From IMG/VR virus record IMGVR_UViG_3300010413_002075, positions 1 through 62,779 of that record: a DNA stretch of 62,779 nucleotides. One strand, 5' to 3'. The notes under the pieces were generated by a model. It saw only the letters and a list, made by a program, of their open reading frames with translations. It did not search any database and was not told the origin of the DNA. The position numbers and the translations under genes were made by a program. The stretch comes from a virus. Below are positions 39,411 to 52,893 of this stretch, one piece after another (the stretch's first letter is position 1; every line of letters starts with the position of its first letter).

Positions 39411-40055
39411 TTATATTTTATGGACACTAATGTCTTTTAGAGTAATCTCTCTGTTCATCTTGTTATTGGTGGTTACGAATTGAATTACAACCTCTGCCAA
39501 TATAGAAGAAGTAAGATGAACTAAATTTGCTGCAAGAGGATAATCGCATATATCATCTTGCTTAACTTCAACCTTTGGAATTGAATAATTTTCATTCCAC
39601 TTGATTTCAGCAAACCCATCGTCGCTCATTCCAGCGTGTACACATGGTATTTTCAAATTGTTGCAAGTCTTTTTAACCATGCCTCTGCTTTCCCAATTAT
39701 CAAAGGCGTCTACGACTAAATCGTGACCTTTGAGCAGCTTTGAGACATTATTCTGCCGTAATTCTTTATCTACCGAATTGATTACTTTCCGGGTTGCCTG
39801 GTGCATTAAAGATTTTAATGCGCTAGTCTTCTTCTGTCCCACATCTCTTAATGTATAAATTTGAGTTGCTACATTTTTTGCCTCAACTCTATCCATATCA
39901 ATTACCGTTATATGTTCTACTCCTTGTCGCAAAAGATTATTTACCAAATTAGAGCCAATCGCACCGGCTCCACAAATACATATTTTTATAGATTGCATTT
40001 TCTTAAAATCTTCGGAGCTACGGTATTCGATTTCATGTTCATGTTCTTTGCTCAT
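39411..40055 (-). CDS. E1-like ThiF/MoeB-family adenylyltransferase
   Basis: 214 aa. Nucleotide-binding GAGAIGSNL at 29-37, VIDMDRVEAKNVATQIY and LRDVGQKKTSA match ThiF/MoeB/E1 enzymes, which adenylate the C-terminus of ubiquitin-like proteins. It follows a JAB-domain gene with a 2-base gap. No ubiquitin-like or E2-like partner is recognisable nearby. The pairing resembles E1-JAB modules known in prokaryotes and phages, but the target is unknown. Confidence 0.85.
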   Translation of the reverse strand: MSKEHEHEIEYRSSEDFKKMQSIKICICGAGAIGSNLVNNLLRQGVEHITVIDMDRVEAKNVATQIYTLRDVGQKKTSALKSLMHQATRKVINSVDKELRQNNVSKLLKGHDLVVDAFDNWESRGMVKKTCNNLKIPCVHAGMSDDGFAEIKWNENYSIPKVEVKQDDICDYPLAANLVHLTSSILAEVVIQFVTTNNKMNREITLKDISVHKI

Positions 40056-40057
40056 AA

Positions 40058-40639
40058 TTATTCTTCTTTCGTCATGGTTCCTATAAGAGATTGTATTGTG
40101 TCTACCAATGTATTAAATCCATTTACCATATCATTTTGAACTCTTTGAATTTCCTCTATCGCAATCATTATTTCACTAATATCGTTTTCACGGTCATCAT
40201 CAGGAACTCCTTCATTTATACCAAAATCGGCCCGCTCCCAAATTTTTACCCCCTCCAACGATACTGCATAATTAACATCATTGGTAGTGCCTACCAAAGT
40301 AGTGGACACAATAACATTATTGCCATCTTTAGAAAATATCCATGCTTTGAGTGAATCATTTGTTTCTATCAAACATACTAGGCTTTTTCCCAAACACCTC
40401 ACCCATTGTTTCATAGTTTCTATATCAATAGAACTCATCTCGGTTACACCTGGAGGATGTGTGTGATAGAATCCAGCTACATCATGGTAGGTATCTTCTC
40501 TATTATAAACTTTTTGATAATCGAATCTAACTTCGCTGGACATATGCTGTGTACAATATTCTGTACCAGTAAGTATTACACTATGTCTAGTTTTGTCGGT
40601 TTCGATTAGCAATTTATATTCTTCATAAAATCTTTCCAT
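40058..40639 (-). CDS. JAB/MPN-domain (JAMM) isopeptidase-like protein
   Basis: 193 aa. The JAMM motif is complete: His59-x-His61-Pro, seven residues, Ser69-x2-Asp72 (GFYHTHPPGVTEMSSID), with Glu27 as the probable acidic partner. Such zinc enzymes cut ubiquitin-like proteins from targets or mature their tails. The C-terminal 60 residues are acidic and helical. Adjacent to the E1-like gene, suggesting one conjugation/deconjugation module. Confidence 0.82.
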   Translation of the reverse strand: MERFYEEYKLLIETDKTRHSVILTGTEYCTQHMSSEVRFDYQKVYNREDTYHDVAGFYHTHPPGVTEMSSIDIETMKQWVRCLGKSLVCLIETNDSLKAWIFSKDGNNVIVSTTLVGTTNDVNYAVSLEGVKIWERADFGINEGVPDDDRENDISEIMIAIEEIQRVQNDMVNGFNTLVDTIQSLIGTMTKEE

Positions 40640-42722: not shown

Positions 42723-44252
42723 TCATTTGATTACCCGTACCATCTTCTTATCGAATTCTTCTCTAGTTGGTAGCGGAGTTTGTAAAATTTCCTCTAGCAA
42801 GTCTACTCTGCTTGGTTTAGTAAGCAAAGGTATCAGATTTGGAATAGAATAGTAATCTGCACCAGATGGTACATGAATAGCATCATATTCGATTCCTTCT
42901 GCAGCACACTCTCGCTCAAGTTTGTCACAACTCCACTTGCCGCAATTGACAAAAACAACCTTTGGCATAAAACCAAACTTCTTTTTGTAGGCACGCATTT
43001 CTTCTATAAATAATGGATTTCTATTTTCTCCTTGATCGGTTACCATTATGATTTGTTCAACCATTTGGTTGCGGCCACGCAAATGATGTATGCCGGCACC
43101 GCATGATGTGGCATTACGAGCTTTAATCATCTTCATGGCTTTTTGCCAGTCGTCAAGTGAATTGCTCACGCAAGTAATTGGTACAGCTACAACATCAGCG
43201 GCATAGCAGTAGAAATCGCCTTCAACTATTGTTGAAATCATCGCACCTATGCCTTTACCAATTTCAATTGCTTCGGTCATTGATTGCGATTTATCAATTA
43301 TTAGTGCAGTGCTACGCTTAATAGTTCCTTTGCGCTTTAATTGTTCGCTAGATATATCAACCAATTGTTTTGCAGTTTCACTGTCTACACCAGCAGTTTC
43401 AGCTGCCTTAGCGGCTTTCAACGCATCGACCTTCTTAGATTTCTTAACTTTCTTCAGCTTAATATCTACAAGAGACTTTATGTCCTTATTATCTAAAGCT
43501 CCACGCTTTTTCAAGGCGCCAAGATTTACTAGAAGCTCTTGATCTGTCATGTTATTGATCAATGCTGCTATTACTGTAGGAGTCATATTTTTTATAGCAC
43601 CCACTGCAGTAGTGTATGGTATCTTGTGTTCCACTATAAGCTTAGCTTGTTCTACTGGGTCATTTTCGCCAGCCAAAAGCTTTATTTGATACAGCTTAGA
43701 ATCTTTTGGTGGTTGATCTTCAAACAGAATGGCCTGAGCGCGTGTCACTTGACATTCTTCACCATCTACTACTACCGTAGTATCTTCGTCTTGATGAGCG
43801 CCAGGCTTTAATCTAAATGAAGAATAAAGACCTGTAAGCGCATTTCTCTGACGTGCAGCAACGGCTCCATCGAATCTAGAATCATTAAGCTCAAAATCTT
43901 TTAAATAGGTTTTGACCGCCGATTTCATTACACGAGGCGGATTCTTTTTGAATACCTTCTTAACATGATTCTTGATCTTTTCTACTTGATATGGAGGGAA
44001 ATTCTGCAAAAGAACATATCCTACTTCTCTATGTTCTGGGAATTCGCTCAATAGCAAAGTAGCAACAAACACTTCCTTGTGATCTCGAATGTCGGTATTC
44101 TCCATTGCCCATACGGCCAAATGTCCGTAGAATAATGGATCCTGATCAATCATACTCTTATGAGTTTCTACTACGCGACCAATGTCACGGTGAGTAGAAT
44201 CTAGTAACGAGTTTAAAATTTGTAATCTTACATCTTGCTCTTTGCTTGCCAT
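42723..44252 (-). CDS. Ro60/Rsr-like TROVE-vWA ring protein
   Basis: 509 aa. The N-terminal 300 residues are helical-repeat (HEAT-like) with LLVNLGALKKRGAL, as in the TROVE domain. The C-terminal vWA domain has a MIDAS: DKSQS at 320-324, NATSCGAG, and VTDQGEN. Cellular Ro60 and bacterial Rsr form rings that bind misfolded RNA 3' ends and Y RNAs and can steer exonucleases. A phage copy is unusual. AAGGAG precedes the ATG. An RNA locus with tRNA-like inserts lies about 8 kb upstream on the same strand. Confidence 0.83.
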   Translation of the reverse strand: MASKEQDVRLQILNSLLDSTHRDIGRVVETHKSMIDQDPLFYGHLAVWAMENTDIRDHKEVFVATLLLSEFPEHREVGYVLLQNFPPYQVEKIKNHVKKVFKKNPPRVMKSAVKTYLKDFELNDSRFDGAVAARQRNALTGLYSSFRLKPGAHQDEDTTVVVDGEECQVTRAQAILFEDQPPKDSKLYQIKLLAGENDPVEQAKLIVEHKIPYTTAVGAIKNMTPTVIAALINNMTDQELLVNLGALKKRGALDNKDIKSLVDIKLKKVKKSKKVDALKAAKAAETAGVDSETAKQLVDISSEQLKRKGTIKRSTALIIDKSQSMTEAIEIGKGIGAMISTIVEGDFYCYAADVVAVPITCVSNSLDDWQKAMKMIKARNATSCGAGIHHLRGRNQMVEQIIMVTDQGENRNPLFIEEMRAYKKKFGFMPKVVFVNCGKWSCDKLERECAAEGIEYDAIHVPSGADYYSIPNLIPLLTKPSRVDLLEEILQTPLPTREEFDKKMVRVIK

Positions 44253-50025: not shown

Positions 50026-50432
50026 TTGATCCCTGCCAATTCTTCTATAAGCTCTTCTTTTCTAATTTCTTCCAACTTTTTCTTTGCCTTTTGAATGGTT
50101 TTCTTATTAAGATCTATCGATCTTTTGAGTTGCTTTATATCTCTCATCAGCTTAGATTTATGTTCTGCAGGCGTAAGCTTATCTGCTTCTTCCTTAGTGT
50201 CAAATAAATCTTTTTCAGTAAGTTTGGTATCAACTCTATACCAAGCGTAAGATCCTCTTTTAGCTGGAGCTATATAATAAACCACAGTCTCTGGTTTCTT
50301 AGTATTTTTTGTTATTTCGGTTTCTACTATCACCTTTTTGATAGTAGTTTGATATCCCTTTTTATTATATTTATAATATACCTTCTGTCCTACTGAATAT
50401 TTTACTTTAGCCTTGTGGTTTATTGTCTTCAT
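50022..50432 (-). CDS. SH3/KOW-like barrel plus coiled-coil protein
   Basis: 136 aa from the ATG at 50432, preceded by GAGAGG. Barrel-like VKYSVGQKVYYKYNKKGYQT and a long Lys-rich coiled coil. It overlaps the EF-Ts stop region by 26 bases, so it is likely translated together with EF-Ts; a role at the ribosome is a guess from that coupling. Confidence 0.55.
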   Translation of the reverse strand: MKTINHKAKVKYSVGQKVYYKYNKKGYQTTIKKVIVETEITKNTKKPETVVYYIAPAKRGSYAWYRVDTKLTEKDLFDTKEEADKLTPAEHKSKLMRDIKQLKRSIDLNKKTIQKAKKKLEEIRKEELIEELAGIK

Positions 50433-51021
50433 CACCCTCTCCCACAACAAATCTCACGAATCTTTTAATAACTATTTTCTCGCTAACTTGAGCCGCCAAA
50501 TCACCTAACAAATCAGTAATAGTGATATTTGAATCTCTGACAAATAATTGATCCATCAAACAAGTTTCTTTGAAAAATTTATTTAGCTTGCCTGCCACTA
50601 TTTTATCTATTACTTGTGGAGGCTTACCTTCCAAAGATGCAGCCATAATTTCTTTTTCTTGATCGATTATTTTTTGCGGAACCTCGTCTCTGGTTATCCA
50701 TCTAGGATTAGTAGCCGCAATATGCATAGCTACTTCTTTAGCAAACTTTTGGAATGCCTCGCCCTTAGCTACAAAATCGGTTTCACAATTGATCTCTACC
50801 ATAACACCTATTTTGCCTCCAGCATGAATATAATATCCAACTGTGCCTTCGGAAGCAGTCTTACTGGCTCGATTGCTAATGTCGGACAGACCTTTCTTGC
50901 GCAAATGGATAATTGCTTGTTCTACATTTCCATTACTAGCAGTTAGTGCCTCTTTGCAGTCCATCATTCCTGCGCCAGTTTTTTCCCTGAGTTCTTTAAT
51001 CTGTTGCAGCGTCACGCTCAT
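50407..51021 (-). CDS. tsf: Elongation factor Ts
   Basis: 204 aa, the short EF-Ts type (Thermus 196 aa). UBA-like N-terminus LREKTGAGMMDCKEAL, then VEINCETDFVAKGEAF, the EF-Tu contact motif TDFV. It exchanges GDP on EF-Tu, and would act on host or phage EF-Tu (none in this window). AAGGAG precedes the ATG. It also forms part of some RNA phage replicases, but here a translation role is the simple reading. Confidence 0.95.
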   Translation of the reverse strand: MSVTLQQIKELREKTGAGMMDCKEALTASNGNVEQAIIHLRKKGLSDISNRASKTASEGTVGYYIHAGGKIGVMVEINCETDFVAKGEAFQKFAKEVAMHIAATNPRWITRDEVPQKIIDQEKEIMAASLEGKPPQVIDKIVAGKLNKFFKETCLMDQLFVRDSNITITDLLGDLAAQVSEKIVIKRFVRFVVGEGDEDNKPQG

Positions 51022-51809: not shown

Positions 51810-51827
51810 CGGAGACCTCCGCATAAA

Positions 51828-51866
51828 AGAAAAGCCGGGAAGTATTTAAAATACGTCCCGGCTTAT
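51828..51866 (-). terminator. Intrinsic terminator of the RNA locus
   Basis: AAGCCGGGA at 51832-51840 pairs perfectly with TCCCGGCTT at 51856-51864, extended by an inner GTATTT/AAATAC stem, with UUUUCUUUU on the minus strand. It ends the RNA transcript just before the ribosome binding site of the gene at 51018-51809. Confidence 0.88.
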
Positions 51867-51874
51867 AATAATCA

Positions 51875-51952
51875 TGGCTCCAAGGGGCGTCTGGAATTCA
51901 CCGACCTCCCAGCCGAAACTGGGCGCTCTTAATCCGTCTGAGCTACCTCGGA
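51875..51952 (-). tRNA. tRNA-like gene 1, identity not assigned
   Basis: 78 bases with encoded CCA. Acceptor TCCGAGG pairs with CCTTGGA, then TA, D arm GCTC/GAGC with GG in the loop, and an AGGTC variable region. The anticodon arm does not close normally: CCCAGT-TTCG-GCTGGG forms a 6-bp hairpin with a UUCG tetraloop, or a 5-bp stem with a 6-base loop. The T arm lacks the TTCRA loop. It may be a pseudo-tRNA or decoy. Reads such as TCG or TTC for the anticodon are possible but unproven. Confidence 0.5.
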
Positions 51953-51955
51953 ATA

Positions 51956-52038
51956 TGGTGCCAAGAAGTGTCTGGTGAACACTGACCTCCAAGTCCTCAA
52001 TAGGACTGGCGTTCCTAAACCATCTGAACTATCTCGGC
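51956..52038 (-). tRNA. tRNA-like gene 2, identity not assigned
   Basis: 83 bases, encoded CCA. Acceptor GCCGAGA/TCTTGGC is fully paired and the D arm GTTC/GAAC has GG. The central arm AGTCCT-ATTG-AGGACT is a 6-bp hairpin with a 4-base loop, not a 7-base anticodon loop. T-like arm AGTGT/ACACT has loop TCACCAG. Spaced 3 bases from its neighbours. Confidence 0.5.
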
Positions 52039-52041
52039 GTA

Positions 52042-52134
52042 TGGTGCAGGGGCAGACTTACGAGGACTGCATCTCCGACTAGGCTCAGGCTGATGAACCT
52101 AGAAGGTATTCTTTAGCGTACTGAACTACCCTGC
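52042..52134 (-). tRNA. tRNA-like gene 3, identity not assigned
   Basis: 93 bases, encoded CCA. Acceptor GCAGGG/CCCTGC (6 bp), D stem GTTC/GAAT. The central arm can form a 9-bp stem CTAGGTTCA/TGAGCCTAG with a 6-base loop. A CAT triplet lies in an alternative fold, so tRNA-Met/Ile(CAT) is not excluded. T arm GCAGTC-CTCGTAA-GTCTGC has an unusual loop. Length would suit a class II tRNA but the fold does not match one. Confidence 0.45.
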
Positions 52135-52137
52135 TTA

Positions 52138-52211
52138 TGGTGCAAAGGAATGGTTACGACCCACTATCTCCCCAGTTTAACTGAGGCGCTCTCGACTTAA
52201 GCTACCTTCGC
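52138..52211 (-). tRNA. tRNA, possibly Leu (anticodon TAA)
   Basis: 74 bases, encoded CCA. Acceptor GCGAAGG/CCTTTGC, D stem GCTT/GAGC, anticodon arm CCTCA-GTTAAAC-TGGGG giving TAA (codon UUA), T arm AGTGG/CCATT with loop GTCGTAA. Variable loop is short, unlike normal tRNA-Leu, and the T loop lacks TTC. An alternative 6-bp/5-base fold of the anticodon arm is also possible. Confidence 0.55.
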
Positions 52212-52215
52212 AAAA

Positions 52216-52353
52216 TTTGCCATCCGATTTTTATAAGCTGTTTTGTTGTCACATCATGCAGGAATCGAACCTGCTACCCTTAGAATCCAAATCTAATGCT
52301 CTACCTAATGAGCTAAAAATGTATGTACGCTTACAACGTCAGAAGACGGCAAA
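52216..52353 (-). ncRNA. RNA cassette D: paired flanks enclosing tRNA-Pro-like module
   Basis: The flanks TTTGCCGTC (52345-52353) and GATGGCAAA (52216-52224) pair (9 bp, one wobble), and inside them TTGTAAGC (52329-52336) pairs with GCTTATAA (52231-52238). Next come TACATAC before the insert and ACA after it, as in the other three cassettes. The insert is a tRNA-like module in normal order. Confidence 0.75.
52250..52322 (-). tRNA. tRNA-Pro (TGG)-like module, no encoded CCA
   Basis: 73 bases inside cassette D. D arm GCTC/GAGC; anticodon arm TTAGA-TTTGGAT-TCTAA with anticodon TGG (codon CCA); T arm GCAGG-TTCGATT-CCTGC. The acceptor ACATTTT/ATGATGT is weak with one mismatch and uses part of the conserved TACATAC. 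CCA is not encoded; the 3' flank continues GACAACAAAACAGC. It may be a processed tRNA, or a tRNA mimic in a longer RNA. Confidence 0.7.
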
Positions 52354-52368
52354 ACTTATATGTGTGTA

Positions 52369-52492
52369 GTCTGTCCGATTATTAAAAGCTGTCTAATAAC
52401 TCTGCTGGAGTCGAACCAGCTCCTCAAATGTGGAAAATTTGCGTCAAACCAATTGACAAAAGTATGTAAGCTTCCAAGGTCTGAGGACAGAC
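52369..52492 (-). ncRNA. RNA cassette C: paired flanks enclosing tRNA-Gly-like module
   Basis: Outer stem GTCTGTCC (52485-52492) with GGACAGAC (52369-52376), 8 perfect pairs; inner stem TTGGAAGC (52470-52477) with GCTTTTAA (52382-52389) including two wobbles. The conserved TACATAC and ACA border the insert. The outer stem sequence differs from the other cassettes but pairing is kept. Confidence 0.77.
52397..52465 (-). tRNA. tRNA-Gly (TCC)-like module, no encoded CCA
   Basis: Inside cassette C. D arm GTCA/TGAC, anticodon arm CAAAT-TTTCCAC-ATTTG (anticodon TCC, codon GGA), T arm GCTGG-TTCGACT-CCAGC. The acceptor is short: ACTTT/AGAGT gives 5 pairs, and outer positions mismatch. No CCA. The good arms but poor acceptor fit a tRNA-like domain at least as well as a working tRNA. 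Confidence 0.65.
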
Positions 52493-52507
52493 AATTCTAA
52501 TCATTTT

Positions 52508-52590
52508 TGTGGGGTCACCCGCATATCTCAGGGAAAGGAGGCGTGAGCTATGAACAATAAGAGACATGTTCAAGTTGCGCGACTGACCCC
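52508..52590 (-). ncRNA. Structured RNA with tRNA-like closing stem
   Basis: GGGGTCA at 52584-52590 pairs perfectly with TGACCCC at 52511-52517, followed by ACA. Inside, CGCA/TGCG lengthens the stem, and two hairpins (TGAACA/TGTTCA; CTCA/TGAG) branch off. Spacing suits an acceptor stem, but no D, anticodon or T arm is recognisable. Candidate small RNA or decayed tRNA between cassettes B and C. Confidence 0.45.
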
Positions 52591-52593
52591 AAA

Positions 52594-52753
52594 TTTTACC
52601 ACTCGATTCATCAAAGCTGTTTTCTCTCTTTGAGACTGTTTATAACACAGTTGCCTTTTCCAGTTTGGCTACTCGCCCATAAAAATTGGTGGGCGAGGAT
52701 GGATTCGAACCACCATTAAAGTATGTAAGCTTCCAAAATAAGAGAGCGGTAAA
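52594..52753 (-). ncRNA. RNA cassette B: paired flanks enclosing permuted tRNA
   Basis: Outer stem TTTTACCGCTC (52743-52753) with GAGTGGTAAAA (52594-52604), 11 pairs with one wobble; inner GAAGC (52729-52733) with GCTTT (52613-52617), 5 pairs including one wobble. TACATAC and ACA border the insert as in cassettes A, C and D. Here the flanks meet at the variable loop of the tRNA rather than at the acceptor. Confidence 0.77.
52635..52714 (-). tRNA. Circularly permuted tRNA, probably Ile (TAT)
   Basis: In transcript order the 3' half comes first: T arm GGTGG-TTCGAAT-CCATC (52698-52714), acceptor CTCGCCC (52691-52697), then ACCA ending at 52687. An 8-base linker (52679-52686) follows, then the 5' half: acceptor GGGCGAG (52672-52678), TA, D arm GCC/GGC with GG in the loop, and anticodon arm ACTGT-GTTATAA-ACAGT (52635-52651, anticodon TAT). 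The acceptor halves pair perfectly. The joining point is the variable loop. A CTC-AAA-GAG mini-stem follows the anticodon arm. Confidence 0.8.
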
Positions 52754-52778
52754 AACTTTTATTCCTTTCAAAATATTT

Positions 52779-52850
52779 GCGTCTAATTTATTAAAGCTGT
52801 TTATGCCTATTCAACTCATGGGTATGTAAGCTTTAAAAGTCAGATGACGC
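52779..52850 (-). ncRNA. RNA cassette A: paired flanks with short non-tRNA insert
   Basis: Outer stem GCGTC (52846-52850) with GACGC (52779-52783), inner TTAAAGC (52830-52836) with GCTTTAA (52791-52797), and the same TACATAC and ACA borders. The insert is only 21 bases (CCATGAGTTGAATAGGCATAA) and holds no tRNA. It is the first element after the promoter. Confidence 0.65.
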
Positions 52851-52865
52851 CTTTTTCTATGTTCT

Positions 52866-52893
52866 ATTATACGCTTTCTGCGACAAATGTCAA
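52866..52893 (-). promoter_or_regulatory. Consensus sigma-70 promoter of the RNA locus
   Basis: Minus strand TTGACA (52888-52893), 16-base spacer, TATAAT (52866-52871), perfect consensus. It lies between the small membrane protein gene and cassette A and should drive the whole RNA locus to the terminator at 51828-51866. Confidence 0.92.

Follow-up and report, generated by a model that had tools for sequence, protein, structure and literature searches.

What can a phage use tRNA-like genes for when these genes have the ends and side arms of a tRNA and no anticodon loop? This question is raised by three genes in a phage genome fragment of 62,779 bases, a single IMG/VR virus record that was analyzed over its whole length and is referred to here as the window. 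The gene content of the window includes a DNA polymerase, RecA-like, DnaJ, trigger factor, FtsK-like, sigma factor, EF-Ts and tail-fibre genes, and the minus strand carries every RNA gene discussed below. The three genes, g1 (51875..51952, 78 nt), g2 (51956..52038, 83 nt) and g3 (52042..52134, 93 nt), encode CCA and are preceded, in the direction of transcription, by a tRNA-Leu(UAA)-like gene (52138..52211), which also encodes CCA and which has a normal 7-nt anticodon loop and atypical T and D loops. All spacers are 3 nt long, i.e., TAA between the Leu-like gene and g3, TAC between g3 and g2 and TAT between g2 and g1.

An acceptor stem, a D arm, a T arm and a 3’ CCA are present in each of g1, g2 and g3. 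The acceptor stems of g1 and g2 are fully paired (7/7 in both), while in g3 a 6-bp acceptor leads into a T stem of 6 bp that includes one mismatch, for 12 positions in total; the D stem is complete (4/4) in all three genes, CCA is encoded in 3/3 and the T stem of g1 includes one A.A pair. The first-pass annotation, which had described three CCA-encoding tRNA-like genes with good acceptor and D stems, was therefore correct, with the 6-bp acceptor of g3 as a detail to be added. It had also described the central arm as a hairpin with a 4- or 6-base loop, with UUCG in one gene, and this is what was found: g1 forms CCCAG-UUUCGG-CUGGG, with a 6-nt loop or, alternatively, UUCG closed by U.G; g2 forms 8 bp with one bulge and an AUUG loop; and g3 forms CC/GG, a 2x2 internal loop and 9 bp with a UCAGCC loop. 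Relative to 17 nt, the central arms of g1, g2 and g3 differ in length by -1, +4 and +15, respectively. The central segments are more stable than most mononucleotide shuffles (P of 0.042 for g1, 0.024 for g2 and 0.002 for g3), and a forced cloverleaf costs 1.3, 0.1 and 0.4 kcal/mol over the MFE in g1, g2 and g3, respectively, and 0 in the Leu-like gene. An alternative fold with a 7-base anticodon loop was looked for in g1-g3 and none is possible; specifically, a 5-bp arm with a 7-nt loop and U33 cannot be formed between the D and T arms of these genes and can be formed in the Leu-like gene. The absence of any standard anticodon loop from g1-g3 is evident from their sequences.

All three T loops lack TTCRA, as had been noted earlier, with the refinement that g3 (CUCGUAA) retains U55-C56-G57, as does the Leu-like gene (GUCGUAA); g1 (AUUCCAG) and g2 (UCACCAG) do not. 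The pair at position 3-70 is C3-G70 in g1 and g2 and A3-U70 in g3, and G3:U70 is found in none of them. By comparison, the Leu-like gene, with anticodon UAA and a short variable loop, carries G3:U70 and A73, an alanine signature, and the tRNA that it encodes might be charged with alanine.

In a search of 351 bases with the Rfam tRNA model RF00005, g1-g3 were unreported even at E≤10, and the Leu-like gene scored 42.1; this covariance-model check, which had been proposed as a way to reveal normal tRNAs, thus reports none among g1-g3, and ARAGORN did not report them either. Among matches to a descriptor consisting of a 7-bp acceptor, U8, a D arm, a 5-bp T stem with a 7-nt loop and CCA (16 pairs at most), only the Leu-like gene (16/16), g2 (16/16) and g1 (15/16) reached a score of at least 15 in the whole window, with 0.075 matches expected at this score per shuffled window. 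The tRNA-like pattern with CCA is by far in excess of chance expectation. The g3 gene was missed by the descriptor because its acceptor has 6 bp, the 12-position acceptor/T helix being split 6+6. Homologues of g1-g3 were not found in any collection searched; a g1/g2 motif scan of viral contigs gave zero matches and the four CCA genes, when compared with phages by blastn, gave matches at chance level only. The pattern AAGCNTACATAC..ACAGCTT had 27 matches in viral contigs, none at a tRNA and in a number close to chance expectation, and was discarded.

Within the array, g1 and g2 are paralogues. Comparison of their 16 stem pairs showed that 10 are identical, 2 changed on one side and 4 changed on both sides and are still paired. 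These four compensated pairs indicate that structure was preserved and, along with the stability of the central arms, argue for maintenance of these genes.

The array belongs to a predicted transcription unit (52893-51822) in which a predicted promoter comes first and g1-g3 come last. The first-pass annotation of g1-g3 makes no mention of the tRNA- and Y-like elements in the 5’ part of this unit. This promoter, TTGACA-16-TATAAT (52866..52893), was predicted from its match to the sigma-70 consensus (12/12) and is followed, 5’ to 3’, by the elements E1 and E2, the structured RNA H, the elements E3 and E4, the Leu-like gene, g3, g2, g1 and a terminator-like hairpin. The hairpin, GCCGGGA..UCCCGGC (51862-51834; 51822..51862 with its U-rich tail), was found by eye and is absent from the output of a simple terminator scan. 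The first-pass annotation had taken the even spacing of g1-g3 to suggest that they are processed and not the result of random decay. Intact stems, the g1/g2 compensation, encoded CCA, the 3-nt spacing and the 12/12 promoter all agree with this view, while stopping short of proof.

E1-E4 share an architecture that consists of P1, an internal loop, P2 ending in AAGC, (U/G)UACAUAC, an insert, P2’ and P1’. E1 (52775..52851) is a Y-RNA-like element without a tRNA module; tRNA modules, one of them permuted, are found in the other three of the four. In E2 (52598..52750), a circularly permuted tRNA sits inside the Y-RNA-like stem in the order T arm, acceptor-ACCA, acceptor 5’ strand, D arm and anticodon arm GUUAUAA. 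E3 (52369..52492) combines the stem with a tRNA-Gly(UCC) module and E4 (52219..52350) has a tRNA-Pro(UGG) module in place of the apical loop; in both, the Y-like stem replaces or extends a weak acceptor. H (52506..52593), located between E2 and E3, is a stable (z -3.1) structured RNA of 88 nt with GGGGUCA/UGACCCC as its closing stem and ACAAA after it; possibly, this is one more tRNA-like gene that has degenerated. In the window, Leu, Pro and Gly are encoded most often by UUA, CCA and GGA, respectively, and AUA ranks second among the three Ile codons, so that the anticodon-bearing members of the array fit codon supply, which g1-g3 cannot.

The same element, P1-GUCCCC..P2-UUACAAAC..P2’..ACUUGGAC-P1’, was found in LR756511.1 (L055, a 595-kb phage) and in L087, L088 and L090. 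In six short elements from huge phages, each varying pair except the outermost one changes on both sides. A covariance model, R1, built solely from these six elements, matched E1 in the window at E=1.6e-6 (next match, 0.29), and a larger search with it gave E3 a score of 24.9 bits; its search of the window found no Y-like stem in g1-g3. On the whole records LR756511.1, G004, G005 and G007, all significant R1 matches are located no more than about 4 kb upstream of a Ro60-like gene. The stem elements, alone or fused to tRNAs, are likewise upstream of the Ro60-like gene in the window (52851-52219, minus strand), and stem elements are clustered upstream of such a gene in L055 (15795-19281), L087 (8730-9907), L088 (7601-8994) and L090 (6584-8939). 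E1-E4 are termed Y-RNA-like because of the R1 matches and the Ro60-like protein of the phage; the Rfam YrlA threshold is reached by no element in the window (E2, 27.8 bits vs a cut-off of 69). In at least 11 huge-phage cases, the stem interrupts the D-arm region or directly precedes the anticodon arm, with tRNA bodies that are otherwise intact and have 7-bp acceptors; replacement of the acceptor by the stem also occurs in huge phages. As chimeras generally retain their anticodon arms, g1-g3 stand out. A chimera in L087 (9130-9242) was considered as a further anticodon-less case and rejected, since it has a short stem with the loop UUCCAAA (anticodon CCA). Hairpins of ~21-40 nt were also observed as insertions in huge-phage tRNA genes, at or close to the anticodon loop, in L055 (18930-19031), L102 (5431-5336, minus strand), L097 (6398-6492 and 11121-11231) and L090 (8772-8864).

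A Ro60 gene, which would be expected in the same genome as Y RNAs, is present in the window ~7.6 kb downstream of the array (42723..44252, minus strand). The encoded protein has HEAT-like repeats and a vWA domain with a DKSQSM MIDAS. Evidence for Ro60 from its sequence only is weak (PHROG 850, E=2.6e-4; PDB profile, E=0.064; no TROVE match in a Pfam search). While a single-sequence structure model was poor (pLDDT of 44), the six-sequence model (pLDDT of 73.7) was decisive for its identity; the top 12 Foldseek matches were all Ro60 structures, including that of Thermus phage phiLo, and VIA Z was 14.5-16.7 for Ro60 entries. The phage Ro60 is the probable partner of E1-E4. The occurrence, near a phage Ro60, of tRNAs joined to Y-RNA-like stems is a stronger discovery than g1-g3.

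Two relatives, G001 and L047, were found with the neighbour genes and the DNA polymerase as bait. The array is absent from both, though the flanking genes are present. In G001, the DNA polymerase of which is 75% identical, ~100 bases separate the neighbour genes, and no match to the Ro60-like gene, no tRNA and no tmRNA were found. L047 retains the terminator-like stretch (81% identity over 59 b) and the next gene. Therefore, the array was either gained in this lineage or lost in both relatives.

Taken together, these results tentatively suggest that g1-g3 are anticodon-less tRNA mimics with preserved structure and most likely serve to decoy enzymes gripping the acceptor, the CCA end or the elbow, although this reading may well prove wrong. 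The ancestors of g1-g3 would have been tRNA genes, from which the acceptor-T helix, the D arm and the CCA end were retained, with a closed hairpin standing in for the anticodon arm. Together with the Y-RNA-like/tRNA chimeras, g1-g3 would be made as one transcript from the strong predicted promoter and would probably be excised by tRNA-processing enzymes. As they cannot decode, they would most likely compete in trans as substrates for enzymes that hold the tRNA acceptor, CCA end or elbow, of which host tRNA-inactivating defences may be the likeliest targets. We infer transcription, processing and decoy action from the structures and the layout of the locus. The T loops of g1 and g2 lack U55-C56; elbow contacts may therefore be weak and binding by elbow readers weakened. 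PrrC and VapC, the nucleases named in the first-pass annotation, cleave the anticodon loop (PMC12851939), which is missing from g1-g3, and are thus less obvious enzymes for these RNAs to bait than those gripping the acceptor, CCA end or elbow. As precedents, there are defences directed at the CCA tail, e.g., Cas12a3 (PMC12851939). In addition, the tRNA-like domain of YrlA is not cut by an anticodon nuclease and has been suggested to be an inhibitor of this nuclease (PMC7790460).

The main rival explanation, which is itself rather doubtful, is decay, i.e., g1-g3 could be former phage tRNA genes with anticodon arms that were hit by indels after the array had been acquired; such genes would still be excised by virtue of the acceptor and T stems left to them. 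The array is missing from both relatives, which makes it labile, all four CCA genes have non-consensus T loops, and the compensated changes between g1 and g2 may be older than the changes in the loops, which leaves room for decay. On the other hand, the central arms are clean hairpins in 3/3 genes despite their changes in length, and acceptor and D stems are intact in 3/3, where broken stems would be expected. It is even less likely that g1-g3 are strongly diverged tRNAs that still decode, or tRNAs with a normal loop in the mature RNA, the additional bases of the central arm being either removed or due to assembly errors. The hairpin insertions of 21 to 30 nt in the anticodon loop of related huge-phage tRNAs fit this explanation, as does the g1 arm, which is one base short of the normal length. 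A one-base assembly error could affect g1 and would leave g2 and g3 unexplained, as an error in a single gene cannot account for three. A tRNA intron was likewise rejected: g1 is too short for an insertion and no excision considered yields a U33 loop in g2 or g3.

Roles outside translation that do not involve bait appear improbable. If g1-g3 were amino-acid carriers or sinks, they would be charged by anticodon-independent synthetases and would supply aminoacyl groups or keep them back. The encoded CCA and the intact acceptor stems would suit such RNAs, and the phage has an EF-Ts gene downstream of the array (50407..51021, minus strand; PF00889, TIGR00116), a gene for a short (268 aa) CCA-adding-enzyme-like protein (5349-4543, minus strand) and the Leu-like neighbour with its alanine signature; however, g1-g3 have neither G3:U70 nor a serine-type long variable arm, and the CCA-adding-like gene is also found in the tRNA-less relative G001. 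It is just as improbable that g1-g3, being small structured RNAs, serve the phage Ro60 as cargo or as a scaffold. While g1-g3 share a transcription unit with E1-E4 in a phage that encodes Ro60, and misfolded small RNAs are, according to entry titles, among the solved Ro60 complexes, g1-g3 lack the Y-like stem and have no clear CCA-encoding analogue in huge phages with Ro60 and Y-like elements. Least probable of all is that the tRNA-shaped ends serve as processing punctuation through which tRNA-maturation enzymes free the 3’ part of the array transcript and shield it; the tandem arrangement of CCA and 3-nt spacers, which closes the transcript ahead of the terminator-like hairpin, would suit this purpose, but a single unit would suffice and three with individual central hairpins exceed the need.

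Several known systems resemble g1-g3 in part. YrlA (RF02553) shares with g1-g3 a tRNA fold without a normal anticodon arm in a Ro60 setting, and with E2 the permuted order of T arm, acceptor and D arm; unlike YrlA, g1-g3 are linear, end in CCA and have no Y stem, and E2 retains an anticodon arm. The tRNA-like domain of tmRNA also has an acceptor, a T arm and CCA without an anticodon loop, whereas g1-g3, at 78-93 nt, have no mRNA-like part, no room for a coding part and no G3:U70; the tmRNA gene of the phage (35516..35915, minus strand) is separate from the array. The tRNA insertions of huge phages that also have Ro60-like genes, as in L055, L102 and L097 (6398-6492), produce a cloverleaf with an enlarged central arm as in g1-g3, and at least some of these tRNAs differ in having a TTC-type T loop, a recognisable anticodon stem around the insertion and no encoded CCA. 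Phage tRNAs that counter tRNA-targeting defences (PMC10264068, PMC11555353) are, like g1-g3, phage-encoded and tRNA-shaped; those that resist anticodon nucleases or evade PARIS or retron effectors are functional tRNAs, the anticodon loops of which are altered or insensitive. Without an anticodon loop, g1-g3 could act as bait only, unlike these working anti-defence tRNAs.

Phage tRNAs have so far mostly been seen as codon supply or as nuclease-resistant replacements. Non-decoding tRNA-shaped RNAs would, if confirmed, suggest that phages use the tRNA fold as bait or scaffold. It is conceivable, if somewhat unlikely, that g1-g3 represent a dedicated class of CCA-tailed phage tRNA mimics with a closed hairpin for the anticodon arm, co-transcribed with Y-RNA-like/tRNA chimeras and acting with the phage Ro60 to shield or divert tRNA-handling enzymes in infection. 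Among the open-access papers that were searched, which include work on phage anti-nuclease tRNAs, YrlA, Cas12a3 and huge phages, no description was found of anticodon-less phage tRNAs or of huge-phage Y-like/tRNA chimeras; Y RNA papers from 2014 and 2018 may cover part of this. The array ties tRNA genes to a phage Ro60/Y-like RNA system and provides a testable system for two questions, namely the reason for Ro60 in phages and that for tRNA mimicry by Y RNAs.

Two further observations concern the surroundings of the array and of the Ro60 gene. Immediately past the array, 51824-51018 (minus strand) encodes a protein with an antitoxin-like (RelB/addiction module) C-terminal end, which has a 46% identical homologue in L047 and no clear match in G001. 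Moreover, ThiF/E1-like and JAB-like genes (39411-40639, minus strand) form a possible ubiquitin-like conjugation set, relatives of which are located near the Ro60 gene in LR756511.1.
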